Shown in pieces: positions 8,230-50,415 of a stretch of 50,415 nt of DNA (position 1 is its first letter; each line of letters starts with the position of its first letter). Below the pieces are notes generated by a model. The model saw only the letters and a program-made list of their open reading frames with translations. It had not been told where the DNA came from and did not search any database. This stretch comes from Flammeovirgaceae bacterium (GTDB lineage Bacteria > Bacteroidota > Bacteroidia > Cytophagales > Cyclobacteriaceae): contig JAHEZH010000022.1 of NCBI GenBank assembly GCA_023251155.1, forward strand, positions 1-50,415, read 5' to 3'. Made by a program: the position numbers and the translations under genes.

Positions 8230-8235
8230 CTTACG

Positions 8236-10797: not shown

Positions 10798-10812
10798 AAA
10801 GCTTTAAATTTA

Positions 10813-10830: not shown

Positions 10831-11247
10831 CGCATACTATTTTAATGATATGATGGGATGAAAAATCCTATTCCATGAGCATTGCTGTGTATAAAAATCC
10901 ACACACAGAAATAAATCCTCCTTCCTAACTATGATAAGTGGGGCCGGTGCCCTTCTAACAGGTCTTATCGGAAGATTATCGTCCTACATAGGCAACCGTT
11001 GTGCTATGGAGGATGCGGAATGATCCGGCTTGATCGTGCGATTGATCTTACGTTGTAGCCGACACTATTTAACTCATGTATTTTTTAATGATACATCTTT
11101 ACCTCCATCGGAATTTAAAAACGGTTGCCCGCTGTGGGGAAATGACAGGATTATTAAAATAGCATCGTCACACTAATGCGTTTCGTCTTCGCATTGAATG
11201 GAGTAGATGACCTAACTTATCTTTTTTCTGATTTAAAACACTACCCA
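10831..11247. other. Intergenic region at the end of the long minus-strand block
   Basis: These 417 bases hold no convincing gene. A weak hairpin AATGCG (11175-11180) / CGCATT (11190-11195) lies 53 bases beyond the UxuA stop, with an A/T-rich stretch after it on the minus strand. It may help end the last transcript of the xylan block, but it is not a strong terminator. Confidence 0.35.
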
Positions 11248-12429: not shown

Positions 12430-12453
12430 GTTTTGAAATTAGAGTGGTGTAAT

Positions 12454-14406: not shown

Positions 14407-14442
14407 GCCGAGAATCGTTTTTCTTTTTGAATTACAGACACA

Positions 14443-17267: not shown

Positions 17268-17408
17268 TTTCGATGGTCTTTTAAAATCATGGAGTAGTCG
17301 TCTTTTGGATAGGGCATGTTCGCTGCCTGTGCTGAATAGCTGCAGCGTGTGAGCAGGTGTCACTCTGTACAGTACTCATGTATCTGATCGTATCGTCTTC
17401 CCTTGTTA

Positions 17409-25362: not shown

Positions 25363-25384
25363 CTCCTTGCTCTTGGTTATTGAA

Positions 25385-28698: not shown

Positions 28699-28752
28699 TT
28701 TCTGATTTTCATTTATATGAAGCGGATTGGCCCGATGAGCAGGTAGTAAAGA

Positions 28753-28780
28753 GGGGTTGTCCATTTTACCGGACAACCCC
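28753..28780 (-). terminator. Strong hairpin between susD and the GH43 gene
   Basis: GGGGTTGTCC (28753-28762) pairs perfectly with GGACAACCCC (28771-28780) around an 8-base loop. It lies 48 bases after the SusD stop and 55 bases before the GH43 start. On the minus strand it is followed by TCTTTACTACC, a poor T run. It probably acts as a partial terminator or an mRNA-end protector that makes SusC/SusD more abundant than the enzymes downstream. Confidence 0.65.
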
Positions 28781-28827
28781 ATTCATCTCAACCTAACCGT
28801 TTCTTATGGATTTAATTTCAGGACGAT

Positions 28828-30656: not shown

Positions 30657-33600
30657 TTAGTATTTTATGTTAACACCGAAAATAAATGATTTGGTAGGAG
30701 GCGTATTGATACCTACCGACGGGCGGTTGCCAAATCCCGGAGTGGAGGTTCCTCCAAAGCCAGTGGGTTCAGGATCTAATCCTCCCTCTTTCACATAATC
30801 GCTGAAAAATGCCTTGAATGGATTCTGTGCCTGCAGGTAAAGATTCACTGAAGAGAGTCCTATCTTCTTTAAGGCAGAAGCAGGTATGGTGTAGCCCAGC
30901 TGCATACTTCGCACTTTCATGAACGTAGCATCGAAGTACCCCATGGTGGATCCATAATCCGGTGTCTGTGAAGCAAGCCCTGGCTTAGGATATTTGTCCG
31001 TTGGATTGGAAGGAGTCCAGTAGTCTACTTTAGGACCACTGGTTCGGCTCTCCAGTGAATTGATCGGATTGGATGCATTTCCCTGGTAGAAGTTGCTCAC
31101 CAGCATACCTCCTACTTTCCAGAACAGCACAAAGTTGAAATCAAATCCTTTGTAGGCAATCCGGTTCGTCAAACCACCAGTCCAGTCTGGCTGAAGTGAC
31201 CCCAGGATGACCCGATCATCTGCGTTGATCACCCCGTTGCCGGCATCCGGTTTACCATCACCATCGGTATCTACCGTAAGCTGATCTTTGATTTTTATTT
31301 CCCCGGTAGTAAATCCGGGAAGGCCTGTTTCTCCGGTTTGAACAATTCCGATTTTCTCATAGTCGTAGATAACATCAATGGGCTGACCGACAAACCATGC
31401 TCTGGATACATCGGAAGCCACCCCTCCATTCAGGAAAGTGATCTCACTTCGGTTGACGGTGAAATTGAAATCGGTCGTCCAGGTAAAACCGGAAGCGCTT
31501 TCAATGTTTACAGTAGAAAGCGATAGTTCAATTCCTTTGTTCGCGGTGGATCCCACGTTCTTGGTTACACTGCCTACACCGGAACTTTGTGGTAAGGAAA
31601 CCGACTGCAGTACATCTTTTGTTTTTTGCTGATAGAACTCTAAGGAACCCATGATGCGGTTGTTGAGTATACCGAAATCAAGACCAATGTTATTGGTGGT
31701 GGTGAATTCCCAGGTCAGTTGTGGGTTCGGAGATGAAGTGACCAGGTACCCGAATGCCCCATTCGATCCGTAGTTGTACGGTTCTGCCGTACGTCCATCC
31801 AGTCCACCCAATGTTCCTAAGGAAGCGTATGGATTCACCGCCTGATTGGAAGTTGTTCCAATTCCATAGCGGAGCTTCAGGTTAGAGATCACCGACAGGG
31901 ATTTCATGAACGATTCATTATGCAGGTTCCATGCGACCGCAGCTGCCGGATAGTAAAACCATTTGTTGCCCTTAGCCAACCTTGAAGAGCCGTCCGCACG
32001 GGCCGTCAGCGTGGCCGTAAAGCGATCCTGGAATGCATAGTTTACTCTTCCCATGTAGGAGAGCAATCCCCATTTATTGTAGTAGTTGTTGTTCAGTGGT
32101 ACGGAAGAAGTTCCCAGGCCAAGATTGTAATAGTACATGTAATCGGCAGGCAGCGAAGTGGCGGTAGCCGCACTGCGAAACTCTTCGGATTCCTGAACAC
32201 TGTATAATCCCGTGAACAACAGTTTATGTTTCTCGGCAAAGGTTTTTTCATACGTCAGCACATTTTCTATCGTGTAGCTCCAGCTGTTGGTATTCTGAAC
32301 GTCTGCACCATTGGCTCCGCCACTGCGAAACGGGGTATTCGATCCGGAGTAGTTGCCATAGTTGTCCTGGAAAAGGTCAAGACCAACGTTGACTCTATAC
32401 AAAAGACCTTCCAGGATCTTCACCTCGGCAAATAAGCTGTTGAACGTGCGCAGTCTTCTGCGCTGCTCTTTCCAGGTGTTCTGGTCTTTCACCAGAAGAG
32501 GATTGATCCGCTCCGGGCTGGGGCTTCCCAGGGCCGGATAGGTATTGATGGAACCGTCCGCATTGTAAGCATTGTATAACGGGCTGAGGGTAAGCAGTGA
32601 AAACATGGTGCTGATACTTTCACCATCCGTGATGTTGAATTGATTTTTTGTACTGAGACCAAGCTTGACTCTGTCGCCAATCTTTTGATCAATCACACCC
32701 TGTACGGAATAGCGGCTGAATGCCTGCCCCGGAATGACCGTGGTCTGATTGAAATAGCCTGCCGATACGTTGACTTTTGTTTCGGCTGTTCCGCCCATGG
32801 CACCGATCAGGTGATTGGTGATGTAGCCACTCTTGTACATCTCATCCTGCCAGTCTACCTGATTTCCGGCAGCGAGGTTAGCGGCTTCGTCCACGGTAGG
32901 CAAGTACAAATTGCCAGCGTCTTTACGCATCTGGTCGTATTCCACGCCATTCATTACTTTATACTTTCCTACCGCTGAGGATACGCCATAGTAGCCGTCA
33001 TAATACACCTGTGTCTTTCCTTCCTTGCCTCGCTTGGTAGTGACCAGAATGACACCATTGGAACCTCTTGATCCATAAATGGCCGTTGCCGAGGCATCTT
33101 TCAGTACATCCAGGGAAGCAATATCACCAGGGTTGATATCATTGATTGTACCGGTGAAAGGGATACCATCGAGCACAATCAACGGATCGTTTGAACCGGT
33201 CAGTGAGCGGCTTCCCCGAATACGGATCTGTGTGCTGCCACCGGGGCGGGGAGATAAGTTGGTTACATCTACACCGGCCAACCTACCCTGCAGCGCCTGC
33301 GAAAGGTTAGCTACCGGAACATCGCGAATGGCTTCCGTAGACAGACTGGCAATAGCACCGGTAACATCACTTTTCTTCTGAACACCATAACCTACCACCA
33401 CAATTTCAGACAATGACTGAAGGCTGGTGGTCAGATTGACATTAATGACGGACTGCCCGTTGACGGGAAGCTCTTTTGATTCGTAGCCTATAAAGGAAAA
33501 TACCAGAATGGCATTGTCACCGGATACTTCCAGGGAATAGTTTCCATCCGCATCACTCGTAGTACCGGTTACGGTACCTTTTACTAAAATGTTTGCTCCG

Positions 33601-33752
33601 GGCAGACCGGTACCATTTTCATCTGCTACCAGTCCTTTTATACGGGTTTGGGCGTTGGCCGCCAGTGTTCCGAAGATCAGTAGAAGGGTGAAAGCGATTT
33701 GGAAGTGCGGATACCTCCTGAGGGGATGAAGTAGTAGAAGTTCTCTTTTCAT
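30657..33752 (-). CDS. SusC/RagA-family TonB-dependent oligosaccharide transporter
   Basis: Outer-membrane importer powered by TonB/ExbBD. The preferred start is the ATG at 33750-33752 (MKRELLL), giving 1031 aa and a signal peptide ending AANAQ. The frame is open to 33821, but the added 23 residues would precede the signal. Domains in order: carboxypeptidase-regulatory-like domain (IKGLVADENGTGLPGANILVKGT), TonB-box region (EIVVVGYGVQKKSDVTGAI), plug (RIRGSRSL..LIVLDGIPF, DVLKDASATAIYGSRGSNGVI) and a 22-strand barrel ending in the family pattern FIFGVNIKY. This first gene of the susCD operon is preceded by a 369-base gap that should hold its HTCS-controlled promoter. Confidence 0.96.
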   Translation of the reverse strand: MKRELLLLHPLRRYPHFQIAFTLLLIFGTLAANAQTRIKGLVADENGTGLPGANILVKGTVTGTTSDADGNYSLEVSGDNAILVFSFIGYESKELPVNGQSVINVNLTTSLQSLSEIVVVGYGVQKKSDVTGAIASLSTEAIRDVPVANLSQALQGRLAGVDVTNLSPRPGGSTQIRIRGSRSLTGSNDPLIVLDGIPFTGTINDINPGDIASLDVLKDASATAIYGSRGSNGVILVTTKRGKEGKTQVYYDGYYGVSSAVGKYKVMNGVEYDQMRKDAGNLYLPTVDEAANLAAGNQVDWQDEMYKSGYITNHLIGAMGGTAETKVNVSAGYFNQTTVIPGQAFSRYSVQGVIDQKIGDRVKLGLSTKNQFNITDGESISTMFSLLTLSPLYNAYNADGSINTYPALGSPSPERINPLLVKDQNTWKEQRRRLRTFNSLFAEVKILEGLLYRVNVGLDLFQDNYGNYSGSNTPFRSGGANGADVQNTNSWSYTIENVLTYEKTFAEKHKLLFTGLYSVQESEEFRSAATATSLPADYMYYYNLGLGTSSVPLNNNYYNKWGLLSYMGRVNYAFQDRFTATLTARADGSSRLAKGNKWFYYPAAAVAWNLHNESFMKSLSVISNLKLRYGIGTTSNQAVNPYASLGTLGGLDGRTAEPYNYGSNGAFGYLVTSSPNPQLTWEFTTTNNIGLDFGILNNRIMGSLEFYQQKTKDVLQSVSLPQSSGVGSVTKNVGSTANKGIELSLSTVNIESASGFTWTTDFNFTVNRSEITFLNGGVASDVSRAWFVGQPIDVIYDYEKIGIVQTGETGLPGFTTGEIKIKDQLTVDTDGDGKPDAGNGVINADDRVILGSLQPDWTGGLTNRIAYKGFDFNFVLFWKVGGMLVSNFYQGNASNPINSLESRTSGPKVDYWTPSNPTDKYPKPGLASQTPDYGSTMGYFDATFMKVRSMQLGYTIPASALKKIGLSSVNLYLQAQNPFKAFFSDYVKEGGLDPEPTGFGGTSTPGFGNRPSVGINTPPTKSFIFGVNIKY

Positions 33753-34121
33753 AGATTTTTGTTTTGTGAATGAATGAACCCTTGACCAAGAAGGATTGGA
33801 AAACAGTGGCCTGGCGACCATGACCGGAACTCAGTCGCCTTGCTTGCTGAACCATCCCACTATCGTAGCTGGCCGCTCATTCCGGTAAGAGGAAACAAGT
33901 AGCGCAAACGATTCCATAAATGTCCTGTCAGCAGGGGAAATCCTCCATTCAAAAAATGAACATTCTCTATCACTTTTAAAACAATCGATTTTTTGCGCCA
34001 ATTTGAAGGTTTTATGACCTATTCAGGAGCTTCTTGTATGGAGATCATTGGCCGGATAGCAGAAATGCACTCTCCTTTTCGGAAGGATTGAACATCTCGC
34101 GGATACGGTATCCGAAAAGGC
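33753..34121. other. Promoter region of susC
   Basis: This 369-base gap lies upstream of susC and downstream of the HTCS gene, so it should contain the inducible promoter and HTCS binding site. I searched the minus strand for TAnnTTTG with a spaced TTTG and found no good match, and no clear direct repeat. No gene is seen. It is one of the two longest gene-free gaps on this side of the window. Confidence 0.5.
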
Positions 34122-37100
34122 TCAGGATTTCGGAGCCAGGTATTCGGAAGGAGCTTTGCCGTATTGGTCTTTGAAGCACTTGGTGAAATACGAAGCAGAG
34201 TTGAATCCGGTCTGGAACGCAATTTCAGAAAGGGTGTATTGGTGTGTTTCCATTAATTTCAGTGCCTGCTTGATGCGCACCATGCGAATGAAATCCACAA
34301 CGGACTTTCCGGTGAGTGCCTTCAGTTTACGGTACACCTGCATGCGGCTTAAATGGAACAGGTCGGCAATGGAATCCACCCCCAGCTGCGGATTCTGGAT
34401 ATGATCGATGACATAATCAATCGCTTTTTGCAGAAAAGCCTGGTCAATCTCATTGCTGGCTACTTTGCCGGGCAGCAGGTAAACTTCCTGGCTAAAGCGG
34501 GAGTACAGCTTTTTACGTGAATCTACGATCTGATTGACGTGGGCAATCAGGTAGCGCACACTGAAGGGCTTGGTAATGTACACATCGGCACCGGCGGCGA
34601 TTCCTTCAATCTGATCTTCTACGGTAGCTTTGGCGGTGAGCAGAATGACCGGGATATGACTTGTCTTGATATTGGATTTGATTTCCTGACACAACTCCAT
34701 ACCGGTTTTACCTGGCATTAAAATGTCGCTTACAATGAGATCAGGACTTCTTTCAATAGCTATCTCCAATCCTTCCCTGCCATCCGTGGCTTCGATCACG
34801 TGGAATTGCTGGCTGAGTTCAAGTGCAATGTATTTTCTCAATTCCTCATTGTCTTCTACGATAAGGATTTGCGGCAGGTCTGACTCGGAGTGAATGGTGC
34901 CCTCCGCATCGACCGAAGCCTCACAAGCAGGCACTGGCCGGGGTATTTCCGTGGTGGTGATGTAACCGGGAGGCTCGCAGATGTCCTCATCGGCATAGCT
35001 CTCCCGGTCGATAGGCAAACGGATAATGAATTTCGTTTCCTGTTCCGGGGTGCTTTCTACGGTAATGCTTCCATGGTGCAATTCAAGAAGGCCTTTGGTG
35101 AGTGCCAGGCCGATGCCGGTGCCGGTGTTGGCAATTTTATCGGAAGATTTTGCCTGGTAAAACTTATCGAAGATAAAAGGTAGCTCTTCTGCCGAAATTC
35201 CGATCCCGTTGTCAACAATGATGATTTCAAGGTGACGCTCCCTGGAACGGCCCTGGAAAGCGAAAGGGTATTTCGATTGAATGACCACATTGATCTGTCC
35301 GTTGTCCAGCGTGAACTTGAACGCATTGGATAGCACATTGACAATTATCTTTTCCAGTTTATCCGGGTCGTACCATCCGTCCAGCGAACTGACCATGGAG
35401 TGCACTCCAAAATGGATATTCCTTTTCTGTGCCAGGCTGGTGAAGGCCGATGTGATTTCTTTAACAAAGCGCACCAGCTCACCCTGCTGTATACGCAATT
35501 TCAGTTTTGTGCTTTCGAGTTTGTTAAAGTCCATCAGTTCATTAACCAGCCGCATGAGTTTATCTGAACTGGTGCGTATGGTATCCAGTCGCTCCTTTAC
35601 TGCCGGGGGCAATCCCTGCATGGATATCAAACTTTCTACGGGCATAGCCATGAGGCTTAAGGGTGTCCTGAACTCATGCGATATGTTAGTAAAAAACTGG
35701 GTCTTGGATTCGCTTAACTCGTGCTCGCGCTCGTGGGCCAGCCGCTCGAACTCCAGTTGACTTTTGATTTTAATTCGCTCCAGGCGAATCCGGATTAAAA
35801 AGAAAATGATCGCTGCCGATACCGCGATATACACGAGCAGCGCCCACCAGGTTTTCCATAGGGCCGGGTGGATAACAATCTCCAGGCGCGCAGGTTGCTC
35901 GCTCCAGACACCATCGCTGTTGGATGCCTTTACAAAAAACACATAGTGCCCGGGATCAAGATTGGTATAGGTGGCGCTGTGACCTTCACCGATGCAATTC
36001 CAGTCGGTATCAAAACCTTCCAGTTTATAACAGTAGTTATTTCGGGAAGACTGCCCGTAATTCAGTGCTGCAAAATCGAGAACGAACGAATGCTGACTGT
36101 TACGTAATTCGATTTTGGTGGTAAGGCTGATGTGTTTTTGCAGGGGCGAATCATCGGTACCAATGGGTACGGATTGATTATTCAATTTCAGATCCGTTAA
36201 AAAAATAACCGGTTTTACTGGATTGCTTTTGATACTGTCCGGGTAAAATGAAACCAGTCCATCGTAACTGCCCACGTAGAATTTGCCATCTTTTGCCAGA
36301 AGGAGCGCATTGGGATTGAATTCATTGGAGGGCAGGCCATCCTCCTGGGTGTAGTTCTGGAATGAGTGCGTAGCGGGATGATACTTTGACAATCCCCTGC
36401 TGCTGCTGAACCATATATTCCCATTTTTATCGGCCACTATTGCTTTCACGGAGTTACTCAGAAATCCATCCTGTTTTCTCATGATCTTAAATGTGCTGCT
36501 TTCTGCAGGAAGTATACTCACCCCATTGTCACCTGAGCCAAACCATAAATTCTTCTTGCTGTCTTTGTAGATGGTCTGAATTTCATTGCTGCCAATCCCT
36601 GACTGGTTCTCTTTGGTATACCAGGTATAGGTGTAGGAATTCTCCTCCGTGCTTTTCAGTTTATAGAGTCCGAACAAGGAAGCCACCCACAGTGTGTTTG
36701 TTTCATCGGTCAGGATAGACGTAATGTAAGCGGTATTGGGAATGTGATTGGGTTGGTTTTCTTCATTAAGGCAAACAAACTTATCCTGTGCGGGGTCCAG
36801 GTAGAAAAGCCCGCTGCCTACACTGCCCACCCATAGTTTTTGATTCTTATCCCGATAAAAACAGAACACTTTGTTGTCACCAAATCCGTTTGACTCCATC
36901 CTGTAATTTTTCAGTTCGGATGTCCGAAGGTTCAGCCGGTAGATCCCTTTGCCCCATGTTCCTATCCATAAATTTTCATTGCTATCATAGAGCAGCGCAT
37001 ACAGGTGATTGGTTTCTAATTTTTTGTTGAGGGCCTGATCGAACTGTATCTCACGGGTTCGTGCATCAAGTTTAGCGAGTCCTCCACCACCAAGGGCCAT

Positions 37101-38273
37101 CCATATATTGCCGCTTTTATCTTCTGCCAGTGCCTTCACATTATTCCCCAACCAACTTTTCTCAGTCATCCGATTCCCCTGATGGGTCTGAAATTTTTTA
37201 GCATTGTTATCAATGAGATAAGCCCCTTTATCATGGGTACCGATCCATGTTATTCCGGTATTATCCACATAGATATTGCGCACTGAATTGGTGGGGAATT
37301 GATTGGGATTACTTTCGGCTGCTCCGTAATGAACAATCTCCTGAGAGGATGCCTTCAGGTAATATAAACCTGAATTCTCCCCTCCTGCCCATAAGTTGCC
37401 GGAGGCATCGAAGCACAGGGTTAGGATATTTTCAGCCCCCTCCCCGCGAAGTGCCTGTTTTAATTGTATTCGTTTAACCTGGTAGCGGTTGTTCTGAGGA
37501 GTGAGCCGGATGATTTCTTTATCAGCTGTACCCAGCCAGATGTTTCCTGACGGGTCGCTGATCACTTGTGTGATTTCCTTTGAGGTGATGCTTTGATCCA
37601 TTTCCGGCAACGGCAGGGTATGTAGTGCAGGAGTATCAAACAATTTGAGCCCCCCTTTTGTACCTACCCACATACGGTCTTTTATGAGTAGCAAGGTGGT
37701 GATATAATTACCCGTGAGCACCTGGTTCTCCTGGCCGATATCCGCATTATGAATGAAGGTGAAAGTCTGGGGATCGTAGATGTTCAGACCGTTTCCATGG
37801 GTACCTATCCATATTTTCCCCTGGGGATCAAAGGCCAGTGAAGTGATGTATTTATTGACCAGGTGATTGCGGTTACCTTTCAACAGATCCACATCCAGGA
37901 AATTATCTTTCTCCCTGTTATAGATGACTAATCCTTGTGCCGTGCCTATCCATAGTTGCTGATGTGCATCTTCGATGATCGCATTGATCCGGTTGTTCGG
38001 AAGGCTGGTGCTGTCACCTGCGGTGTGTTCATACCTGTAAAGCGTGGTTCCATCATAGCGCATCAACCCATTGCTCAGACCGAACCACATGTAGCCTTTA
38101 CTGTCTTTATATATACACCGAACGAATGCGCTGGAGAGTTGATCGGGTGCCACGGGAACAAAGGTAGGTGGTTGCGATTGGGCAATGAAGAGCGTACTGA
38201 ACACTAACGCCAGTGTGCAGGTTATTCTGCGGAGCAGGCAAATAAAAAAAGGGGTGTAGCTCATCTTCTCCAT
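34122..38273 (-). CDS. Hybrid two-component system regulator (HTCS)
   Basis: One-protein two-component system of 1383 aa that senses a glycan fragment in the periplasm and activates the locus. Signal/anchor at about 15-33, then 14 two-component-propeller repeats (W-I/V/F-G-T/S...GL motifs from MWFGLSNGL near 62 to FYVGSYDGL near 665), which fits two seven-bladed propellers. A Y_Y_Y domain follows at about 735-800 and a transmembrane helix at 805-828. The kinase has phospho-acceptor H866 (NISHEFRTP), N-box at about 985 and G-box DNGIGIS/GTGIGLAL. The receiver has D1183 (VSDILMP) and K1235. A C-terminal AraC double helix-turn-helix (about 1285-1380) ends the protein. All catalytic residues are present. 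It lies directly upstream of susC on the same strand. Confidence 0.97.
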   Translation of the reverse strand: MEKMSYTPFFICLLRRITCTLALVFSTLFIAQSQPPTFVPVAPDQLSSAFVRCIYKDSKGYMWFGLSNGLMRYDGTTLYRYEHTAGDSTSLPNNRINAIIEDAHQQLWIGTAQGLVIYNREKDNFLDVDLLKGNRNHLVNKYITSLAFDPQGKIWIGTHGNGLNIYDPQTFTFIHNADIGQENQVLTGNYITTLLLIKDRMWVGTKGGLKLFDTPALHTLPLPEMDQSITSKEITQVISDPSGNIWLGTADKEIIRLTPQNNRYQVKRIQLKQALRGEGAENILTLCFDASGNLWAGGENSGLYYLKASSQEIVHYGAAESNPNQFPTNSVRNIYVDNTGITWIGTHDKGAYLIDNNAKKFQTHQGNRMTEKSWLGNNVKALAEDKSGNIWMALGGGGLAKLDARTREIQFDQALNKKLETNHLYALLYDSNENLWIGTWGKGIYRLNLRTSELKNYRMESNGFGDNKVFCFYRDKNQKLWVGSVGSGLFYLDPAQDKFVCLNEENQPNHIPNTAYITSILTDETNTLWVASLFGLYKLKSTEENSYTYTWYTKENQSGIGSNEIQTIYKDSKKNLWFGSGDNGVSILPAESSTFKIMRKQDGFLSNSVKAIVADKNGNIWFSSSRGLSKYHPATHSFQNYTQEDGLPSNEFNPNALLLAKDGKFYVGSYDGLVSFYPDSIKSNPVKPVIFLTDLKLNNQSVPIGTDDSPLQKHISLTTKIELRNSQHSFVLDFAALNYGQSSRNNYCYKLEGFDTDWNCIGEGHSATYTNLDPGHYVFFVKASNSDGVWSEQPARLEIVIHPALWKTWWALLVYIAVSAAIIFFLIRIRLERIKIKSQLEFERLAHEREHELSESKTQFFTNISHEFRTPLSLMAMPVESLISMQGLPPAVKERLDTIRTSSDKLMRLVNELMDFNKLESTKLKLRIQQGELVRFVKEITSAFTSLAQKRNIHFGVHSMVSSLDGWYDPDKLEKIIVNVLSNAFKFTLDNGQINVVIQSKYPFAFQGRSRERHLEIIIVDNGIGISAEELPFIFDKFYQAKSSDKIANTGTGIGLALTKGLLELHHGSITVESTPEQETKFIIRLPIDRESYADEDICEPPGYITTTEIPRPVPACEASVDAEGTIHSESDLPQILIVEDNEELRKYIALELSQQFHVIEATDGREGLEIAIERSPDLIVSDILMPGKTGMELCQEIKSNIKTSHIPVILLTAKATVEDQIEGIAAGADVYITKPFSVRYLIAHVNQIVDSRKKLYSRFSQEVYLLPGKVASNEIDQAFLQKAIDYVIDHIQNPQLGVDSIADLFHLSRMQVYRKLKALTGKSVVDFIRMVRIKQALKLMETHQYTLSEIAFQTGFNSASYFTKCFKDQYGKAPSEYLAPKS

Positions 38274-38400: not shown

Positions 38401-40857
38401 TCAATAATTAACCAGCGAGTAAACCTCTCCTCGTTGAGTGGGCACATCGTACAGCCAGGTGATGGCAGGCTTGGCCGCAAGCAGGGATGCACTATCCGCA
38501 ATGACGGGTGCTGGCAACCGGTCGATAGCGAAAAATGAATTTGAGTTGACACCTGTTGCCAAAACCAGACCGGCGCCATCGTTTAGCTTAAGCGGATGAG
38601 GTGAACGTAACCTGAGGTTGCCACCGAGGTTTGATTTGATGACCAGCTTTTCCAGCTTTCCATTTTTCCATTTCATCTCAACAATCTCGAAGCCGCCTTT
38701 TGCACGCAACCCGCTGATGCTTCCTTCCGGCCACACATCGGGCAAAGCAGGGAGCAGATGAATTTCATCGTACGCACTCTGCATCAACATCTCGGTAATG
38801 CCCGATGTACAACCAAAGTTACCATCGATTTGAAAGGGAGGATGCGCATCAAAAAGATTGTTGTAGGTGCCACCTCCTCCTTCTATGGTACCAACTGGCG
38901 TGAGCTGGTCCTGGATCAATTTATACGCATGATTACCATCCAGCAACCGTGCCCACCAGTTTACTTTCCACCCCATGCTCCACCCCGTTGACACATCACC
39001 CCGATGCATTAGGGTCGTCTTTGCTGCACGGTATAAATCGGGAGTGCGATAGGCAGAAATCTGATTGGAGGGATATAATCCATACAAATGAGAAACGTGC
39101 CGGTGCTTATCGCCGGGGTCATCAATATCTTCGAGCCACTCCTGCAACTGGCCATGCTGCCCGATGTGCATGGGCGGCAGCCGAAGCCGCATGTTTTTTA
39201 AGGTATCAATGAATGCGGCATCACGTTTCAGTATTTCCGCAGCTCGGATGGTGTTGCTGAATACATCAAAGACAATCTGATTACTCATGGTAGTCCCTAC
39301 ATCGAGCGATGAACCCTGATGCGCAGCAGGTGCATTTTCCGGTGACATATCCGGATTAACCACCAGCCAATGGTACTTCGGATGTTCGACCAGAAAGTCA
39401 ACAAAGAAAAGGGCGGCTCCTTTTAATACCGGATAAACGGAGGCGAGGTATTGCTCATCTCCATTGTATAAGTAATGCTCCCACAGGTGCTGACTCGTCC
39501 AGCCACCCCCCATTGGCCATGCTCCCCAGAAGGCCGCATCCACTGCACCTGTCGCACGCCAGATGTCGGTGTTATGATGGGCCATCCAGCCCCGTGCTCC
39601 ATACATCACGCGTGCTGTCTCTTGCCCGGTCTCCGACAACTCCTTTACCATCTGAAGAAAAGGATCGTGCAGCTCAGCGAGGTTTGTTTTTTCTGCTGGC
39701 CAGTAGTTCATCTCTGCATTAATATTAATGGTGTACTTACTGTCCCAGGGAGGATTCATTTTATTGTTCCAAAGTCCCTGCAGTGTGATGGGCTGACCAC
39801 CGGGTTGCGAAGAAGCGATGAGCAGATAGCGGCCGTACTGAAAATACAGGGCAGCAAGATGCGGATCACGCGATGTGCGGAAGTTTTTCAACCGTACATC
39901 AATAGGTTGTTGCACTGCATCGGTCACTCCGAGATCAAGCTTCACGCGATTAAAATACTTCTGGTAAGCATCAACATGATCGTTCACCATCTGATCAATT
40001 GATTTCGATGCAATTTTATTGAGCTCACTTTCTGCACGCTGATTTTCATCTCCCTCCAGATGGCGGTAATCGGTAAAGTTGGTGGCAATGGAAATACAAA
40101 TCGTCGCTGCGTTAGCGTGTTGAACGATTAACGTTGAATCATTGGCTAATTGCTTTCCGCCTTCCAGCTTGATGCGTGCTATTCCTTTGAACCGTACTTT
40201 TCCTTCTACGGTTTCGTGATCGGATGTCGTAGCAGTCAACGTCAGGTCATTGACAGAAGTTGTTTTGATACTTGCTTTCAGATGTGGCGAGGTAAACGAT
40301 GCCTGGAAAGAAATGCTCCCTGATTTACTCGCTGTCAATCGTATCACAATAACACGATCAGGAAGGGAAGCAAACACTTCGCGTGTGTAAGTGATGCGGC
40401 CTACTTTGTAGGTCGTTTTAGCTACTGCTCTTTCAATGTCGAGTTCGCGGTAGTAATCCGTGTAGTTTTCATGATCATTAAAAGTAAGCAGAAGATTTCC
40501 CACCGGTTGAAATTTCTGACCGTGTGATTTTTGGGAGATGATCGTCTTATTGGCAAGTTGCTCTGCTTCCTTTTGTTTGCCATTATAAATGAGCTGCCTT
40601 ATTTGATCCAATGAAGCCAGTGCCTCCGGATTGTCATTGCGGTTGGGACTGCCACTCCACACGGTATGCTCGTTCAGTTGAATGATCTCCTGCGCAACAT
40701 TACCATAAATCATGGCGCCAAGTCTTCCGTTTCCAACGGGTAACGCATTCTCCCACGTGTCTCCGGATGGAAGGTTATACCATAGTTTTAGTGCCGGTTT
40801 CTTCTGAGCGAAAACAGGAATTGTGAAAATGAACAGCAGATAAAAGAGGCGCTTCAT
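38401..40857 (-). CDS. Secreted GH95 alpha-L-fucosidase or alpha-L-galactosidase
   Basis: Inverting glycosidase of 818 aa. Signal peptide 1-17 (ending VFAQ), N-terminal beta domain from [20 protein letters not shown], an (alpha/alpha)6 barrel from about 290, and a C-terminal beta domain. The catalytic asparagine pair is N378 and N380 in the [12 protein letters not shown] block; [10 protein letters not shown] and [13 protein letters not shown] are further family marks that include the acid. GH95 enzymes of the Bacteroides ovatus complex-xylan locus are known to remove alpha-L-galactose, so this role is as likely here as defucosylation. It follows the esterase trio by 70 bases and precedes the HTCS gene by 127. 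Confidence 0.93.
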
Positions 40858-40927: not shown

Positions 40928-43933
<3,006 letters not shown>

Positions 43934-43940
43934 TCAGCGA

Positions 43941-45104
43941 TTAATTTTTAAACACGATTTGTACGGTTTCCGTCACGTAGGTTTTTACGTTCATCCACGT
44001 ATGACCACCATCCGTTAGTAAACTTTTATACTTCACGTTTTTTGATTTCAGGTACTCCATAAACGCTACGTTTCCCTGATATAGAAAATCGTCCGTGCCT
44101 ACACTTATCCAAAGCAGGCGCAACTGTTCATTGGTTTTCTTTGCATCCGCACCAATGTGTTTATAGTTTGATTCCATCTCAGCAGGTGAAAGCCCGGCAC
44201 TGAAAGAACAAATCCATGCAAAAGTATCCATGTTATTAAAGCCCGCGCGTAACGTTTGCCCGCCACCACGGGAAAAGCCGCCAATAGCACGGTTATTTCG
44301 ATCTGTCAGGGTCCGGTAATTTTTATCGATGTAAGGAATAACCTGATGGATCAGATCACCTTCAAAAAGTTGGGCACGCTTGATGGCATCCTCACCATCG
44401 CGCACCATCACATAGGCAGGTTTCGGTTTGCCCGTTTGTTCCGCAATGCGTGCAAGCGGATTTCCATAAGGCATCACCACAATCATCGGGTTAGCTTTTC
44501 CCTCTGCAATCAGGTTATCTAAAATCAAATTCACTCGGCCTACTTTAAAGAAAGTCTCTTCGGTATCGGTAGTTCCGCTGATCAGGTAAAAGACCGGATA
44601 TTTTAGTGAAGGGTTTTTCTCATACCCCGGTGGGGTGTACACCACCAGTGAGCCGGTCGTTTCCTGGATGGACGGATAATATTCATACGTGACCGTACCA
44701 TGCGGTACATTTTTCATCGCAAACACCAGGGGCTCTTCCCCCGGAACATCTACCATACTTGCCTTAAACCGTTCATTGGGAAAGTAAGCTACGTTGGCAG
44801 GATCCATCACGGTAATACCATCCACCTGAAAGCTGTACGGATAGCTATCCGGCTTCACCGGGCCGACCGTCACGCTCCAGAGGCCGGTTGAATCTTTCGT
44901 CATACTCACCGGTGCCTTTTCAAACTGAGCACTCAGCTTCACCTCTTTGGCACGTGGTGCCTGGTAACGAAACGTTATTTTTTTATCCTGATGTACTTCG
45001 GGCGACACCACCAACGGGCCTCTTGGTGGTTGTGCCTTAACGATTGAGAACGTCAGCAGCAGCAAACACAGGAAGAACCTTGTTATTATAGCTAGTCTTT
45101 TCAT
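43941..45104 (-). CDS. Secreted CE1-type esterase with altered oxyanion motif
   Basis: 387 aa from the ATG at 45102-45104 (MKRLAII). The frame is open to 45164 but would then overlap the permease gene and precede the signal peptide (ending VKAQ). It has the same sandwich plus CE1 plan as its neighbour. In the long frame the triad is S298 (GGFSRGGG), the aspartate in GTDD (358/359) and H388 (GGHTW). Two places differ from the sister enzymes: YLISGTTD replaces YLIHGGSD, so the usual HG of the oxyanion loop is lost, and an extra insert of about 20 residues (236-262) precedes the serine. It may have a changed substrate or weak activity. Confidence 0.9.
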   Translation of the reverse strand: MKRLAIITRFFLCLLLLTFSIVKAQPPRGPLVVSPEVHQDKKITFRYQAPRAKEVKLSAQFEKAPVSMTKDSTGLWSVTVGPVKPDSYPYSFQVDGITVMDPANVAYFPNERFKASMVDVPGEEPLVFAMKNVPHGTVTYEYYPSIQETTGSLVVYTPPGYEKNPSLKYPVFYLISGTTDTEETFFKVGRVNLILDNLIAEGKANPMIVVMPYGNPLARIAEQTGKPKPAYVMVRDGEDAIKRAQLFEGDLIHQVIPYIDKNYRTLTDRNNRAIGGFSRGGGQTLRAGFNNMDTFAWICSFSAGLSPAEMESNYKHIGADAKKTNEQLRLLWISVGTDDFLYQGNVAFMEYLKSKNVKYKSLLTDGGHTWMNVKTYVTETVQIVFKN

Positions 45105-45123: not shown

Positions 45124-46440
45124 TTATACCAATGCGTTGATGATAAGCACACCAATGAGGCCAATCACGGAGACCAGGGTTTCCATTACCGTCCATGAAC
45201 GAAAGGTATCTTTCATGGAAAGGCCGAAATACTCCTTGAATAACCAGAAAGCGGTATCATTGACATGGGAGCAAAATAAACTACCCGCTCCAATGGACAA
45301 CACCAATAAATTAGGATCGACTGCAGTATGAGCAGTAAACGGATATAAAATTCCCGCAGCAGTAAGACCCGCAATAGTGGCAGAGCCTAATGCAAGTCGC
45401 AACCCTGCCGTCACGATCCATGCAAGCACTAAAGGGGGAAGTTGCCACCCACTGAGTACGGATGCCAGTTCCTGGCTCAGACCACTGTCAACCAGTATTT
45501 GTTTCAGCATGCCTGCACCACTGATAATAAGCAGAATCATGGCAATGTCTTTTACGGCTTCACCATACACCTTCATAACCTGCGATAGTCTTTTCTTCTG
45601 GTGCAGCCCCAATGAATAAGTAGCGATGGCGATCGTCAGTGCCATCGCTACATTCGGCTCGGATAAAAACTGCATTACATTATTAAAAGACGAATCGGGG
45701 GCAGCGTCAAGTTTAGTCAGAAGCATTGCAACGGCAATGATGATGACCGGAAGAAGAGAAGAAACAAGGCTATTGATGATGCCTGGCATTTGCTCATCAG
45801 GAAGCTCAACGGATTGACAGATCACGGGCACTGATGAGGAAAGGTTCTTTAACGTAGCAGAAAACAGCGGTCCTGCAATCACGATAGCGGGAATAGCGAT
45901 GATCATCCCATACACGAACGTGGTAACCATGTCGGCCTGGAACTGAGCTACCAGGGCAATGGGTGAAGGGTGCGGGGGCAAAAAACCGTGCATCACTGAC
46001 AAGGAGGCAAGCATCGGAAGTCCGATATAAACCAATGGAAGCTGGTAACGAAATGCGACAGAGAAAATGATCGGTACCAATAACACAAAGCCGACATTGT
46101 AGTAGAGCGGAATGCCAACAATAAATCCCGTCAGGCTCATGGCCCAGACAATGTAATTCCTGCCGAAGATCCGTTGCATCAGGCCGGCAATACGTTGGGC
46201 CGCACCGCTGTCGGCTACCAACTTCCCTAACATGGCACCCAATACAATCACAATAGCGATTGATCCCAGGGTATCACCGATTCCCTTACTTATCGATTTG
46301 GAAATGGCATGGAATGGAATGCCCAACAGCACACCCGCCACTACCGACACAAACAGAAAAGCAAGAAACGGATTCAGCTTTACCCAACTGATGAGTAACA
46401 CCAGGCCAATGATGCAGCCGATGAGAATGAAAAAACTCAT
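45124..46440 (-). CDS. GntP-family sugar-acid permease
   Basis: Inner-membrane H+ symporter of the gluconate permease family, 438 aa and about 12-14 hydrophobic helices. Family marks are IPLYYNVGFVLLVPIIF (about 152-168) and SVMHGFLPPHPSPIALV. Known members carry gluconate, idonate, fructuronate or other aldonates, not neutral sugars. The start could be the ATG at 46438-46440 or a GTG at 46444-46446 that abuts the TAA of the dehydratase gene; either way the two genes are translationally coupled. In this locus a pentonate (xylonate or arabinonate) or a uronate is the likely substrate. Confidence 0.92.
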   Translation of the reverse strand: MSFFILIGCIIGLVLLISWVKLNPFLAFLFVSVVAGVLLGIPFHAISKSISKGIGDTLGSIAIVIVLGAMLGKLVADSGAAQRIAGLMQRIFGRNYIVWAMSLTGFIVGIPLYYNVGFVLLVPIIFSVAFRYQLPLVYIGLPMLASLSVMHGFLPPHPSPIALVAQFQADMVTTFVYGMIIAIPAIVIAGPLFSATLKNLSSSVPVICQSVELPDEQMPGIINSLVSSLLPVIIIAVAMLLTKLDAAPDSSFNNVMQFLSEPNVAMALTIAIATYSLGLHQKKRLSQVMKVYGEAVKDIAMILLIISGAGMLKQILVDSGLSQELASVLSGWQLPPLVLAWIVTAGLRLALGSATIAGLTAAGILYPFTAHTAVDPNLLVLSIGAGSLFCSHVNDTAFWLFKEYFGLSMKDTFRSWTVMETLVSVIGLIGVLIINALV

Positions 46441-46446
46441 GCTCAC

Positions 46447-48159
46447 TTAATGCGAATCACGTGTCACTTTCGCTCCTGATTTACCGCGAAGAAAATCAAG
46501 GTCTGCCCCCAGATCGGCCTGCTGCACATGGCGCACATAGAGGTTGACATAACCACGGTCGGCAGCAGGTTCGGGTTTCTTCCAGACTTTCCTGCGCTGG
46601 TCCAACTCTTCATCCGAAACATGCAAATGAAGTTTCTTTGCCTGCACATCCAGTTCAATAAGGTCTCCGTTTTTTACCAGTGCCAGATTACCACCTATCG
46701 CCGATTCCGGTGACACATGCAGTACCACTGTTCCGTAAGCAGTACCACTCATGCGGCCGTCTGAAATGCGTACCATGTCGGTGATGCCTTTATCCAGAAG
46801 TTTTTTGGGTAACGTCATGTTGCCTACTTCCGGCATACCGGGATAGCCCACCGGGCCAACGGTCTTCAATACCATCACGCAGGTTTCATCAATGTCAAGA
46901 TCAGGATCATCCACACGGTTGTGATAATCTTCAATGTCTTCGAAGACTACTGCACGTCCTGTATGCTTCATGAGTGCCGGGGTGGCGGCAGAAGGTTTGA
47001 TCACGGCACCGTTGGTGGCCAGATTACCTTTCAGTACGGTGATGCCCGCTTCCGATTGGAATGGACGATCATATTCAGCAATTACTTCGGTATTGAAACA
47101 GGTATCGCGCCCGACAATATTTTCTCCGTGCGTTTTGCCATTGACTGTCAATGCATCCAGATGAAGCTCTGACTTAAGCTGACTGATGATCACCGGTAAA
47201 CCTCCGGCATAATAGAAATCTTCCATGAGAAATTTCCCCGAAGGCATCAGGTTGAGCAGCAAAGGAATTTTACTACCCAGTTGATCGAAGTCATCCAGTT
47301 TAAGATCTACTCCGATACGTCCTGCTATGGCCGTAAGGTGAATTAAAAAATTCGAAGAGCCACCTATGGCCGCGTTGATCTTAATCGAATTTTCAAACGC
47401 TTTACGGGTAAGTATCCGAGACATCCGCAAGTCTTCTTTCACCATCTCTACAATTCTTCGTCCTGATAACTGGGCCATGACTTTTTTACGGGAGTCAACA
47501 GCCGGAATAGCAGAAGCACCCGGTAGGGTCAGCCCCAAAGCCTCCACCATACACGCCATGGTCGATGCTGTACCCATCGTCATGCAATGTCCCTGGCTTC
47601 TCGACATGCAACTCTCGGCCTGAGCATATTCATCGTAGGTTATTTTACCTTTCTTTAATTCATCCGTCAGTTGCCATACGGCTGTACCCGAACCGATGTC
47701 ATGTCCTTTGTATTTTCCATTCAGCATGGGACCTCCGGGAACAACCAGCGTTGGCAAGTCAACACTTGCGGCACCCATGACGGTGGAGGGCGTTGTCTTG
47801 TCACAACCGGTCAGCAAAACGATACCATCAAGCGGATTACCGCGGATGGATTCTTCCGCATCCATGCTGGCGAGATTGCGGAATAACATGGCCGTGGGTT
47901 TAAGTAATGTTTCCCCCAATGACATGATCGGAAACTCCAGCGGGAAACCACCGGCTTCGTAAACACCCCGCTTCACCGACTCTGCCGTATCACGCAGGTG
48001 CGCATTGCAGGGGGTGAGTTCGGACCACGTATTGCAGATACCAATAACCGGTCGTCCATCAAAAAGATCTTCGGGTATGCCCTGGTTCTTCATCCAACTC
48101 CGGTAGATAAAGCCCATCTTATCTTTCTTGCCAAACCAATCAGAACTTCTGTATTTCAT
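46447..48159 (-). CDS. IlvD/Edd-family pentonate dehydratase
   Basis: Iron-sulfur dehydratase of 570 aa that should convert a C5 sugar acid to 2-keto-3-deoxypentonate in the cytosol. Possible cluster cysteines are C51 (TPCNAHL), C119 (TGCDKTTP) and C192 (SQGHCMTMG). Their spacing of 68 and 73 equals that of C59, C127 and C200, which I recall as the [2Fe-2S] ligands of Rhizobium L-arabinonate dehydratase. The SRSQGHCMTMGTAST block is typical of the sugar-acid branch rather than of branched-chain amino-acid IlvD. No ilv genes are nearby. Xylonate and arabinonate cannot be told apart here. Confidence 0.9.
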   Translation of the reverse strand: MKYRSSDWFGKKDKMGFIYRSWMKNQGIPEDLFDGRPVIGICNTWSELTPCNAHLRDTAESVKRGVYEAGGFPLEFPIMSLGETLLKPTAMLFRNLASMDAEESIRGNPLDGIVLLTGCDKTTPSTVMGAASVDLPTLVVPGGPMLNGKYKGHDIGSGTAVWQLTDELKKGKITYDEYAQAESCMSRSQGHCMTMGTASTMACMVEALGLTLPGASAIPAVDSRKKVMAQLSGRRIVEMVKEDLRMSRILTRKAFENSIKINAAIGGSSNFLIHLTAIAGRIGVDLKLDDFDQLGSKIPLLLNLMPSGKFLMEDFYYAGGLPVIISQLKSELHLDALTVNGKTHGENIVGRDTCFNTEVIAEYDRPFQSEAGITVLKGNLATNGAVIKPSAATPALMKHTGRAVVFEDIEDYHNRVDDPDLDIDETCVMVLKTVGPVGYPGMPEVGNMTLPKKLLDKGITDMVRISDGRMSGTAYGTVVLHVSPESAIGGNLALVKNGDLIELDVQAKKLHLHVSDEELDQRRKVWKKPEPAADRGYVNLYVRHVQQADLGADLDFLRGKSGAKVTRDSH

Positions 48160-48203
48160 GAGAGCACGTTATAAATTAAATGAATAGATCGTCGTTGAAT
48201 TTT

Positions 48204-49793
48204 TTAAATGCGGTCTTTCGTCCACTCCCCGTTGATCAGCCGCCATACGCCAAGTGGGTTTTCATTTTGTAATTCCGGAGGTAACCACGGTGAAGGCATG
48301 TCCTGATAGCACACCGGTCGTGTGAAACGATAAATCGCAGCTGTACCCACCGAAGTACTGCGACCATCCGTAGTGGCTGGATAAGGACCTCCATGTACCA
48401 TGGCATGACACACTTCCACTCCTGTAGGAAATGCATTGATAACAATACGCCCTGCTTTCTGCTCGAGAATAGCAAGTAACTCCGTATACGCTGCCAGATC
48501 GTGTTCGGTACCATGTACCGTGGCGGTGAGGTGCCCCTTCAGATTTCGTGCTGCTTCAAGCAACTCATTCTTCGTTTTCATTTCCACTACCACGCTGGCC
48601 GGGCCGAAAACTTCTTCGGACAATTCGGGATTGGAATAGAGCGTGTCGCCCTGCGTTTTAAATAAGGCCGGGCTTGCATAATGAGCACCTTCCCCTCGGG
48701 CGCCGATTGCCAGCAGTTCGACTTCTTGCCGGGAGGCATGCCGCGCAACGCTGGTTGTATATGATTTAAATATGTTTTCCGTAAGCATTGCCCCACCGGT
48801 CGTCTTTTCGAATTCGGTTTTGATCTGAGAAATAAATTCAGATGAGCCGTCACCCTGCTGATGGAATAGCAATCCGGGATTGGTACAAAACTGCCCCACT
48901 CCCAACGTCACGGATGCGGAATAGCCTTGTGAAATTCGGGCCGCGTTCAGCTTCATCGCTTCAGGCAATACAAACACCGGATTGGAGCTGCCCATCTCCG
49001 CATACACCGGGATAGGTTCTTCCCGTTGTGCCGCGATATCAAACAAGGCTTTACCTGCCTGGAAAGATCCGGTTAACCCAACAGCTTTCATATGTTTGTT
49101 CTTTACGAGTTGGGTGCCGATAACCGAACCATCACCATGTAACATCGAAAATACACCATCGGGCATGTAGGTAGATTGAGCGGCACGTTGAATGGCTTTG
49201 CCGACCAGCTCTCCGGTAGCAGGATGTGCAGAATGTACTTTCACAATTACCGGGCAACCGGCAGCCAATGCCGAGGCCGTATCGCCACCGGCCACGGAAA
49301 AGGCCAATGGAAAATTGCTCGCTCCAAAAACCACCACGGGCCCAACGCCTGTGTGAAGGGAACGAATATCCGGCTTAGGAACAGGGACACGTCCGGGTTC
49401 AGCTGTTTCAATACGGGCATCCCGCCATGAACCTTCACGCAATACCCGGGCAAAGAGCCGCAGCTGATTTATCGTACGGCCTCGTTCTCCTTCGATGCGC
49501 GCCTTCGGCAGTGCGGTCTCACGGCAACACACTTCGATCAAAGCATCACCCAGAAGAAAAATTTCCTGTGCAATGGCATCGAGGAACATGGCTTTATCAT
49601 TACCTGACTTTTTCCGGTACACCTGAAATGCGCTTGCTGCTTTTTCACAGGCAAGATCTGCCTCGCGTACAGTTGCTTTTACGAAACTATATTCAAGCGG
49701 AACACCCAGAGCGGGGTTATACGAATGAAAGCGATCGGTGCCTTCAGCCGTCAGGCTGAAACCGATGATCTGCTTTCCATCAATCTTTATCAT
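48204..49793 (-). CDS. 2-oxoglutarate semialdehyde dehydrogenase (NADP-type aldehyde dehydrogenase)
   Basis: 529-aa aldehyde dehydrogenase, cytosolic. The catalytic cysteine is C303 in VGQFCTNPG, the general base is E266 in AEMGSSNP, and the cofactor stretch is GPVVVFGASNFPLAFSVAGGD (151-171) with LTGSFQAGK. The N-terminus and the FGASNFPLAFS / QFCTNPG combination belong to the 2-oxoglutarate semialdehyde (2,5-dioxovalerate) dehydrogenase group, which is longer than ordinary ALDH. It would make 2-oxoglutarate, the last step of oxidative pentose or glucarate breakdown. It is 11 bases from the FAH gene and 44 from the dehydratase gene. Confidence 0.92.
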   Translation of the reverse strand: MIKIDGKQIIGFSLTAEGTDRFHSYNPALGVPLEYSFVKATVREADLACEKAASAFQVYRKKSGNDKAMFLDAIAQEIFLLGDALIEVCCRETALPKARIEGERGRTINQLRLFARVLREGSWRDARIETAEPGRVPVPKPDIRSLHTGVGPVVVFGASNFPLAFSVAGGDTASALAAGCPVIVKVHSAHPATGELVGKAIQRAAQSTYMPDGVFSMLHGDGSVIGTQLVKNKHMKAVGLTGSFQAGKALFDIAAQREEPIPVYAEMGSSNPVFVLPEAMKLNAARISQGYSASVTLGVGQFCTNPGLLFHQQGDGSSEFISQIKTEFEKTTGGAMLTENIFKSYTTSVARHASRQEVELLAIGARGEGAHYASPALFKTQGDTLYSNPELSEEVFGPASVVVEMKTKNELLEAARNLKGHLTATVHGTEHDLAAYTELLAILEQKAGRIVINAFPTGVEVCHAMVHGGPYPATTDGRSTSVGTAAIYRFTRPVCYQDMPSPWLPPELQNENPLGVWRLINGEWTKDRI

Positions 49794-49804
49794 ACGTTAA
49801 AAAT

Positions 49805-50415
49805 TTAGGCAACCGTATTTTCCAAAGTGCCAATGTGTTCGATGGTAATGGTGATGACATCGCCTGATTGCAGTGTAAACTGATCGGGCGGAACAATGCC
49901 TGTTCCTGTCATCAGGTACGTTCCGTGAGGGAATGTCACTTCACGAAAAAGATACTCCGCCAGTTCACTATGCTTTCTGCGCATCCGGTTAATGGAGATC
50001 GCATTGGAAAATGCCATGGTTCCCTTCCGTTTGATTGAAATAGTGATTACCGTATCCGGATGAATCGGTGCTTCCGGCACATACAGACACGGGCCGATCG
50101 CAGTTGCTCCATCATAGGATTTTGCCTGAGGCAGATACAAGGGATTCTCTCCTTCAATGTCGCGTGACGACATATCATTTCCGATCGTGTATCCTTCAAT
50201 CGAACCGGAAGAACAGATAAACAAGGTTAATTCCGGTTCAGGCACGTTCCATAAGGAGTCTCTTCGAATACGTACATTACTATCCGGACCCACTACACGA
50301 TAAGCAGGCGCTTTGAAGAACAGCTCCGGACGTGGGGCCTCATACACCCGTGCATAAAAATCTCCTCCTCCTGCATCTTTTGATTCTTCCATACGCGCTT
50401 CACGACTGCGCATGT
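49805..50415 (-). CDS. FAH-family 2-keto-3-deoxypentonate dehydratase, partial
   Basis: The gene runs off the right edge; 202 codons from an internal ATG are visible and perhaps 80-100 N-terminal residues are missing. The fumarylacetoacetase-type fold shows the metal-binding E-x-E in VPEPELTLF (E59, E61 of the visible part), then [18 protein letters not shown] with the third acid, [11 protein letters not shown], and the ending [17 protein letters not shown], all classic for this family. Next to a pentonate dehydratase and an oxoglutarate-semialdehyde dehydrogenase, the likely reaction is 2-keto-3-deoxypentonate to 2-oxoglutarate semialdehyde. A different FAH-fold hydrolase activity cannot be excluded. 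Confidence 0.88.

Follow-up and report, generated by a model that had tools for sequence, protein, structure and literature searches.

A four-gene operon at the contig end

The window analysed here, a stretch of 50,415 bp, is a complete contig (C184) of a Flammeovirgaceae genome of 6.44 Mb that lies on 333 contigs and is 99.2% complete. At its right end, four adjoining genes encode a putative route from a pentonate to 2-oxoglutarate, and they border on a set of genes for the utilisation of xylan. From the contig end inwards, the four genes are:

49805 to 50413, minus strand: FAH-superfamily protein truncated at its N-terminus where the contig stops, probable 2-keto-3-deoxy-D-pentonate dehydratase (FAA_hydrolase, 76 bits, cut-off 23.9)
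48204 to 49793, minus strand: NADP-type aldehyde dehydrogenase (ALDH), probable 2-oxoglutarate-semialdehyde dehydrogenase, going by its context (Aldedh, 162 bits, cut-off 23)
46447 to 48159, minus strand: IlvD/EDD sugar-acid dehydratase, probable pentonate dehydratase (NF004784, 920 bits, cut-off 539)
45124 to 46446, minus strand: GntP-family sugar-acid:H+ symporter (TIGR00791 gntP, 480 bits, cut-off 293; PF02447, 471 bits)

The gap between the FAH and ALDH genes is 11 bp and that between the ALDH and dehydratase genes 44 bp, while the dehydratase and GntP genes are separated by 0 bp with the listed GTG start or by 6 bp with an ATG two codons on. These positions and gaps agree with those given by the first-pass annotation, which had also placed the operon 19 bases from the esterase operon of a xylan locus. 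The listed start of the first esterase open reading frame (ORF) is a TTG at 45164; with the ATG at 45104, which is in the same frame, the distance between the GntP stop and the esterase is 19 bases. The FAH ORF lacks about 76 N-terminal residues and is incomplete because the window ends with the contig; a search of the genome's contigs for the absent N-terminus found no match anywhere in the assembly. A scan for promoters and terminators remained at the level of shuffled sequence (11 against a mean of 11.2, and 7 against a mean of 7.7, respectively). We infer that the four genes are co-transcribed.

To assign the FAH protein we used a full-length orthologue from one of the related loci described below (L008). 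Its best match in the PDB is 2Q18, the Sulfolobus 2-keto-3-deoxy-D-pentonate dehydratase (186 bits; next structure, 69 bits). The FAH cluster has the Glu/Lys dyad and the three acidic Mg ligands of the D-specific FAH-type dehydratase, residues that are named in the accessible part of PMC9795676: in the alignment, Glu114, Glu143, Glu145, Asp164 and Lys182 are conserved in all 43 cluster members, the protein of the window included. Residue 164 is printed there as Glu, but is Asp in the structure chain and in all 43 members. A strict active-site motif had matched 26 of the 43; the alignment showed that this pattern was too narrow. According to the accessible part of the same paper, 2-keto-3-deoxy-pentonate dehydratases are of the FAH type for the D-form and of the DHDPS type for the L-form, and this assignment is our main argument for D-xylonate as the probable substrate.

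The dehydratase scored highest in the PDB against 8EJ0, a sugar-acid dehydratase from P. ureilyticus (892 bits), followed by the R. leguminosarum L-arabinonate dehydratase 5J83 (780 bits) and the Caulobacter D-xylonate enzyme 5OYN (463 bits). Its cluster contains a C-terminal His in 83 of 83 entries and SGTA in 82 of 83, the gene of the window being counted twice (as itself and as L003); both are features of the sugar-acid IlvD/EDD subfamily in the accessible parts of PMC11316719 and PMC9314677. The latter source, as far as accessible, gives the P. ureilyticus enzyme 20 U/mg with D-xylonate and 48 with D-gluconate. When it was offered D-ribonate, D-arabinonate, D-xylonate and D-lyxonate, a set outside which L-arabinonate falls, just D-xylonate was used. 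The seven best listed outside matches of the window's dehydratase (84-88%) are from Cyclobacteriaceae, Cytophagales and Flammeovirgaceae metagenome-assembled genomes, Dawidia and Ohtaekwangia, from which we place the host in Cytophagales. The genome has two further IlvD-type genes; by eye, the neighbours of the one on C294 read like genes for branched-chain amino-acid synthesis, and the one on C112 adjoins SDR-like and TetR-like genes. Dehydratases 79-81% identical to that of the window occur in L027, L028, L030-L033 and L072 with neither FAH nor ALDH in the DNA examined; GntP is present in all of these except L027, which is at a contig end, and their substrate may differ from that of the window's enzyme.

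The ALDH matched 3V4C, an aldehyde dehydrogenase (NADP+), best (472 bits), followed by 1EYY (436 bits); against the 2,5-dioxovalerate dehydrogenase model NF052305 it reached 109 bits (cut-off 750). Judged by family, the pentonate dehydratase step of a Weimberg-type pathway would be supplied by a member of the IlvD/EDD sugar-acid family and the 2-keto-3-deoxy-pentonate dehydratase step by a FAH-type enzyme. The enzyme set from pentonate to 2-oxoglutarate that had been proposed at first pass fits the lower half of such a pathway, with the correction that the FAH ORF is truncated.

The xylan locus and related loci

Between 45164 and 11248, every gene that could be assigned is on the minus strand:

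43941 to 45104, minus strand: esterase with a CBM48-like domain just under cut-off (PF00756, 64 bits; NF041944 xylanase/feruloyl esterase, 133 bits, cut-off 1200)
42854 to 43930, minus strand: esterase of the same type (PF00756, 75 bits)
40928 to 42847, minus strand: two-domain esterase of the same type (PF00756 in two stretches, 174 bits)
38401 to 40857, minus strand: GH95 family glycosidase (PF22124, 606 bits)
34122 to 38273, minus strand: hybrid two-component sensor/regulator (Reg_prop, Y_Y_Y, HisKA, HATPase_c, Response_reg, HTH_18)
30657 to 33821, minus strand: SusC-like TonB-dependent receptor (Plug, CarbopepD_reg_2)
28828 to 30651, minus strand: SusD-like protein (PF07980, PF14322)
27022 to 28782, minus strand: GH43 with GH43_C2 domain (PF04616, 302 bits; PF17851, 153 bits)
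25385 to 26989, minus strand: GH43 with GH43_C2 domain (PF04616, 131 bits; PF17851, 143 bits)
24349 to 25485, minus strand: zinc alcohol dehydrogenase, RspB/sorbitol-dehydrogenase type (ADH_N, ADH_zinc_N; best PDB match 4ILK RspB, 153 bits; NF007489, 195 bits, cut-off 376)
22173 to 24227, minus strand: GH67 alpha-glucuronidase (PF07488, 496 bits)
19476 to 21908, minus strand: GH127 family (PF07944, 357 bits)
17409 to 19409, minus strand: GH51-type alpha-L-arabinofuranosidase (PF22848, PF06964)
16527 to 17363, minus strand: SDR oxidoreductase, probably UxuB-like, fructuronate reductase (PF13561, 216 bits)
14443 to 16494, minus strand: GH43-GH10 two-domain enzyme, xylanase (PF00331, 354 bits; PF04616, 103 bits)
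12454 to 14406, minus strand: SASA-type acetylesterase (PF03629, 82 bits)
11248 to 12429, minus strand: UxuA mannonate dehydratase, glucuronate branch (TIGR00695, 564 bits, cut-off 200)

With a SusC/SusD pair, a sensor/regulator and xylan-active enzyme families in place, we read these genes as a probable glucuronoarabinoxylan utilisation locus. We take the three PF00756 esterases to be of the CE1 type and the architecture of the sensor/regulator to be that of a hybrid two-component system (HTCS). The RspB-like zinc alcohol dehydrogenase, which sits between GH67 and GH43 and had just weak matches (25-27%) in 80 related loci, could serve uronate catabolism or act as a cytoplasmic pentose dehydrogenase. 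The SDR was likewise considered as a pentose dehydrogenase and rejected: it has a 74% homologue in L069, and it is more likely a UxuB-type enzyme of the glucuronate branch because in L068 the gene immediately before UxuA encodes a 64% homologue.

The related loci are the best 80 of at least 573 confirmed dehydratase loci found by scanning genome contigs. FAH was present within the locus DNA examined in 42 of the 80; these 42 contained ALDH in 26 cases, GntP in 30 and both in 17. We searched all 80 with 13 xylan-type queries (GH3, GH10, three for GH43, GH51, GH67, GH127, UxuA, SASA and the three esterases) and obtained p-values that ignore relatedness between loci, L004-L007 for example being near copies. 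At least one query matched in 21/42 FAH-positive against 7/38 FAH-negative loci (p = 0.005), and in 19/37 against 5/25 when loci of at least 15 kb were compared (p = 0.017). A stricter set of 10 queries, from which GH3, GH127 and UxuA had been removed as not specific to xylan, gave 16/42 against 5/38 (p = 0.02).

Single loci illustrate the link between oxidative and xylan genes. L069 has a single-strand run of GH115, GH3, GH88, SASA acetylesterase, aldose-aldose oxidoreductase (AAOR), dehydratase, SMP-30 lactonase, FAH, GntP and GH10 in which no gap exceeds 119 bp; the locus has no ALDH. L057 reads GH67, GH43, arabinofuranosidase, dehydratase, SMP-30 lactonase, FAH, GntP and GH10, and this operon stands back to back with, and divergent from, a xylB-like gene (305 bits against a cut-off of 380) and a xylA cut by the contig end. 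In four close relatives (L004-L007) the order is FAH, ALDH, dehydratase, esterase, GntP, esterase, esterase; these esterases are homologous to those of the window, and two of them are 73-79% identical. L068 has ALDH, dehydratase, FAH, GntP, an oxidoreductase, a regulator-like gene, GH67, an SDR and UxuA, with araBAD and an arabinofuranosidase-like gene divergent from the oxidative operon, and in L036 an oxidoreductase and a lactonase are in one run with xylan enzymes. The coupling described at first pass for the window alone is recurrent in some Bacteroidota but far from universal.

A further cluster near the dehydratase operon was seen in L009 (18280-21715) and also in L010, L018, L020, L025, L029 and L081. 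It comprises an RraA-family protein whose start is signal-like, a galactonate-dehydratase-like member of the enolase superfamily (10 of its 16 cluster members begin in a Tat-like manner) and an SBF transporter, and is possibly an exported second sugar-acid route. In the window's genome, the enolase-type dehydratase had just a partial match of 27%.

Candidate first steps and the isomerase route

No pentose 1-dehydrogenase or lactonase was assigned in the operon of the window. Among the proteins of related operons, cluster 13 is an SMP-30 lactonase (the L051 member matched the exported gluconolactonase 3DR2 best, with 121 bits) and cluster 17 is the AAOR (the L069 member scored 282 bits against 5A02). 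By simple ad hoc patterns rather than a signal-peptide program, the SMP-30 proteins of related loci have a lipobox-like start in 11 of 11 cases. Six of the 8 AAORs begin with a Tat-like sequence, and of the remaining two one is truncated at a contig end.

For each of the two, a single strong match was found in the window's genome. The AAOR homologue on C225 is 51% identical, has RRQFL at its start and scored 318 bits against 5A02 and 243 bits against the Zymomonas glucose-fructose oxidoreductase. It resembles both the Caulobacter AAOR and the Zymomonas enzyme, including a Tat-type start; unlike the Caulobacter case, AAOR genes are placed in pentonate operons in some Bacteroidota loci. The SMP-30 protein on C196 is 56% identical to an operon member and has a lipobox-like LAFAC start. 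Comparison of 20 kb around these two genes with a reference set of genes from the window and related loci gave as extra matches just an SDR (33%) and a response regulator (29%). The PQQ-type sugar dehydrogenase family had eight matches in the genome, the best (C59, 434 bits) cut by the contig start. According to the accessible part of PMC4628093, the Caulobacter AAOR converts D-xylose with no added cofactor, and its physiological function is called unclear. The first-pass annotation had suggested looking for pentose dehydrogenase and lactonase genes to the right of the operon; none was assigned in the operon itself, and candidates lie elsewhere in the genome, exported-looking for C225 and C196. 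With the candidates on C225, C196 and C59 the genome could supply every step of such a route, the oxidation being placed outside the cytoplasm, and one or more of these candidates may feed the pathway of the operon.

The first-pass annotation had noted that xylose isomerase and xylulokinase were missing. This is correct for the annotated genes of the window, which include neither xylA nor a xylB-like gene, but not for the genome. xylA is split there by a contig break, with residues 66-435 on C165 (567 bits) and residues 1-26 on C307 (26 bits, below cut-off); a xylB-like gene (318 bits, cut-off 380) adjoins the C307 piece, and araA is on C276. A cell lacking the isomerase route is refuted by these genes. 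We also drew an even class sample of 395 genomes, in which xylA was found at E <= 1e-60 in 63 and FAH at E <= 1e-40 in 22; xylA was present in 21 of the 22 FAH-positive genomes, the exception (G383) being 89% complete. Because of this co-occurrence and of xylA, the xylB-like gene and araA in the genome, we conclude that the oxidative route does not replace the isomerase route.

Two further observations concern these routes. In L132 (G242, C32, 7986-11430) a second FAH gene, 54% identical, is arranged divergently to xylA, which suggests that the FAH type is tied to D-xylose; the FAH gene is followed by a gene that by eye reads like a DHDPS-family enzyme and had no NCBIfam match at E <= 1e-30. 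L099 (C45, 3-1346) is an FGGY kinase cut at the contig start (gluconokinase model, 393 bits, cut-off 649) that, by the gene order in Ohtaekwangia koreensis (L009), may lie past the right end of the window together with a GH3 gene and an AraC-type regulator.

Substrate and role of the operon

We consider it most likely, on sequence grounds, that the Bacteroidota xylan locus of the window is joined to the lower part of a Weimberg-type pathway, which would be an auxiliary of XylA/XylB and have candidate exported first steps; the four genes would probably be the lower half of a D-xylonate route that operates beside XylA/XylB at a glucuronoarabinoxylan locus. The glycosidases and esterases of the locus would release xylose outside the cytoplasm, and part of it would be oxidised at C1 in the periplasm by the Tat-type AAOR of C225 or the PQQ-type sugar dehydrogenase of C59. 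The lactone would be opened by the lipoprotein-like SMP-30 lactonase of C196, and GntP would import D-xylonate with protons. In the cytoplasm, the IlvD/EDD enzyme would convert D-xylonate to 2-keto-3-deoxy-D-xylonate, the FAH enzyme would convert this to 2-oxoglutarate semialdehyde, and the ALDH would oxidise the semialdehyde to 2-oxoglutarate. Such an oxidative branch would be an auxiliary to the XylA/XylB route and no substitute for it. As a tentative generalisation, possible rather than probable, some Bacteroidota may have a two-compartment Weimberg pathway in their xylan loci, in which a Tat-exported AAOR and a lipoprotein lactonase oxidise xylose from xylan in the periplasm with no need for free NAD(P), xylonate enters through GntP and the cytoplasmic enzymes feed the tricarboxylic acid cycle directly, in parallel to XylA/XylB.

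A number of observations weigh against the D-xylonate reading, some of which favour an alternative. SMP-30 and AAOR genes are infrequent in FAH-positive loci (9/42 and 6/42, against 2/38 each in FAH-negative ones), and in the window's genome both are on other contigs, unlinked to the locus. With the stricter queries and loci of at least 15 kb, the excess of xylan-type genes shrinks to 15/37 against 4/25 (p = 0.05, relatedness uncorrected). The class sample adds little enrichment. Of the 22 FAH neighbourhoods read (own genome excluded, G242 represented twice, one on a 3.6 kb contig), six had a dehydratase within about 10 kb, for which reason FAH presence alone was discarded as an operon marker; three of the six were already in the named set. 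A xylan-type gene was found in 1 of these 6 and in 2 of all 22, whereas the 16 control regions, taken from FAH-positive genomes in the sample, had none (13 queries). GH10 occurs in 16 of the 22 FAH-positive genomes and within 40 kb of FAH on one contig in three (G000, G014, G351). On the Runella slithyformis plasmid pRUNSL05 (L160; 38.8 kb), FAH and ALDH are paired with a different dehydratase: positions 4786-15952 hold AraC, FAH, ALDH and an altronate-dehydratase-family gene; the plasmid also carries a PQQ-dependent sugar dehydrogenase. Finally, the oxidative route is not the genome's sole one for xylose or arabinose. A purely accidental adjacency, in which an independent four-gene operon happens to end at the xylan locus, would accord with the 21 of 42 FAH-positive loci and 20 of 22 class-sample neighbourhoods in which no xylan-type gene was found, and with a genome of the same genus (G158) that has no FAH. 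We regard it as highly improbable in view of the 19 bp to the esterase gene, the homologous esterases inside the operon of L004-L007 and the recurrence with GH10, GH67 and GH115.

The nearest NCBIfam equivalog of the dehydratase is NF009559, L-arabinonate dehydratase (855 bits, under the cut-off of 882), and the R. leguminosarum L-arabinonate enzyme outscores the Caulobacter D-xylonate enzyme (780 against 463 bits). Since the locus also has GH51-type, GH127 and GH43 genes, the operon might serve the L-arabinose side chains of arabinoxylan, converting L-arabinonate to 2-oxoglutarate. We think this quite unlikely, as the next enzyme is of the FAH type, that of the D-form, whereas L-form enzymes are of the DHDPS type; moreover, a full araBAD adjoins the oxidative operon in L068, and the window's genome has araA. 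The genes might instead import and burn environmental sugar acids (D-xylonate, D-gluconate and others), in which case their place at the xylan locus would reflect shared regulation with plant-matter breakdown and not oxidation of the cell's own xylose. GntP comes from the gluconate:H+ symporter family and was found with no FAH in the locus DNA examined in 10 of 38 FAH-negative loci, some on short contigs; the operon of the window has neither a lactonase nor a clear pentose dehydrogenase; and the best-matching characterised dehydratase, from P. ureilyticus, favours D-gluconate, going by the accessible part of its description. In L069 and L036, however, oxidoreductase and lactonase share a run with xylan enzymes. 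The combination of FAH and ALDH, furthermore, fits C5 acids. We judge this alternative to be rather unlikely.

The proposed D-xylonate route has parallels in known systems. The Caulobacter Weimberg pathway has in common with the window, as read here, an IlvD/EDD pentonate dehydratase and an ALDH step to 2-oxoglutarate, and with related loci an SMP-30-type lactonase. In contrast to Caulobacter, no SDR xylose dehydrogenase was assigned here, the dehydratase is nearer to other sub-branches, a GntP importer and a tie to a SusCD xylan locus are present, and the candidate oxidation enzymes look exported. The archaeal oxidative pentose route has a FAH-type 2-keto-3-deoxy-D-pentonate dehydratase with the same five catalytic positions, and of the 89 plasmid records listed with FAH homologues, the top five (50-52%) include three haloarchaeal ones; the pentonate dehydratase is of the IlvD/EDD type here but typically of the enolase superfamily in archaea, according to the accessible part of PMC9795676. 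The set usual in Bacteroidota xylan loci (SusCD, HTCS, GH10, GH43, GH67 and esterases) is present in the window, which differs from such loci in adding probable genes for the lower steps of oxidative pentose breakdown.

In Bacteroidota, the pentose phosphate pathway is usually regarded as the entry point for xylose derived from xylan. An oxidative branch within their xylan loci would, if real, alter the yields of carbon and redox equivalents, cross-feeding by way of xylonate and xylitol, and how such loci are interpreted; the loci could also be a natural enzyme source for xylose-to-2-oxoglutarate engineering. Such a branch would also give a physiological role to the AAOR, whose function is reported as unclear in the accessible part of PMC4628093. 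In line with the first-pass annotation, we found no description of the coupling in the literature searched, most subscription papers being outside its coverage. In their accessible parts, PMC5507952 describes L-arabinonate loci in Halomonas and names none for its two Bacteroidetes, PMC11775059 lists a Bacteroidetes XylA homologue with the enzymes tested in yeast, XylA being the final enzyme of the route in that paper, and PMC11892949 does not mention xylonate.

Two side observations come from the far left of the window. A serine hydrolase of the AmpH/class C beta-lactamase superfamily (2863-4017) scored under the cut-offs of the 25 families listed, of 45, and is probably not a resistance gene. 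An alpha-L-fucosidase family protein with F5/8 type C domains (587-2680) adjoins a tRNA-Arg (236-310), the two together spanning 236-2680.

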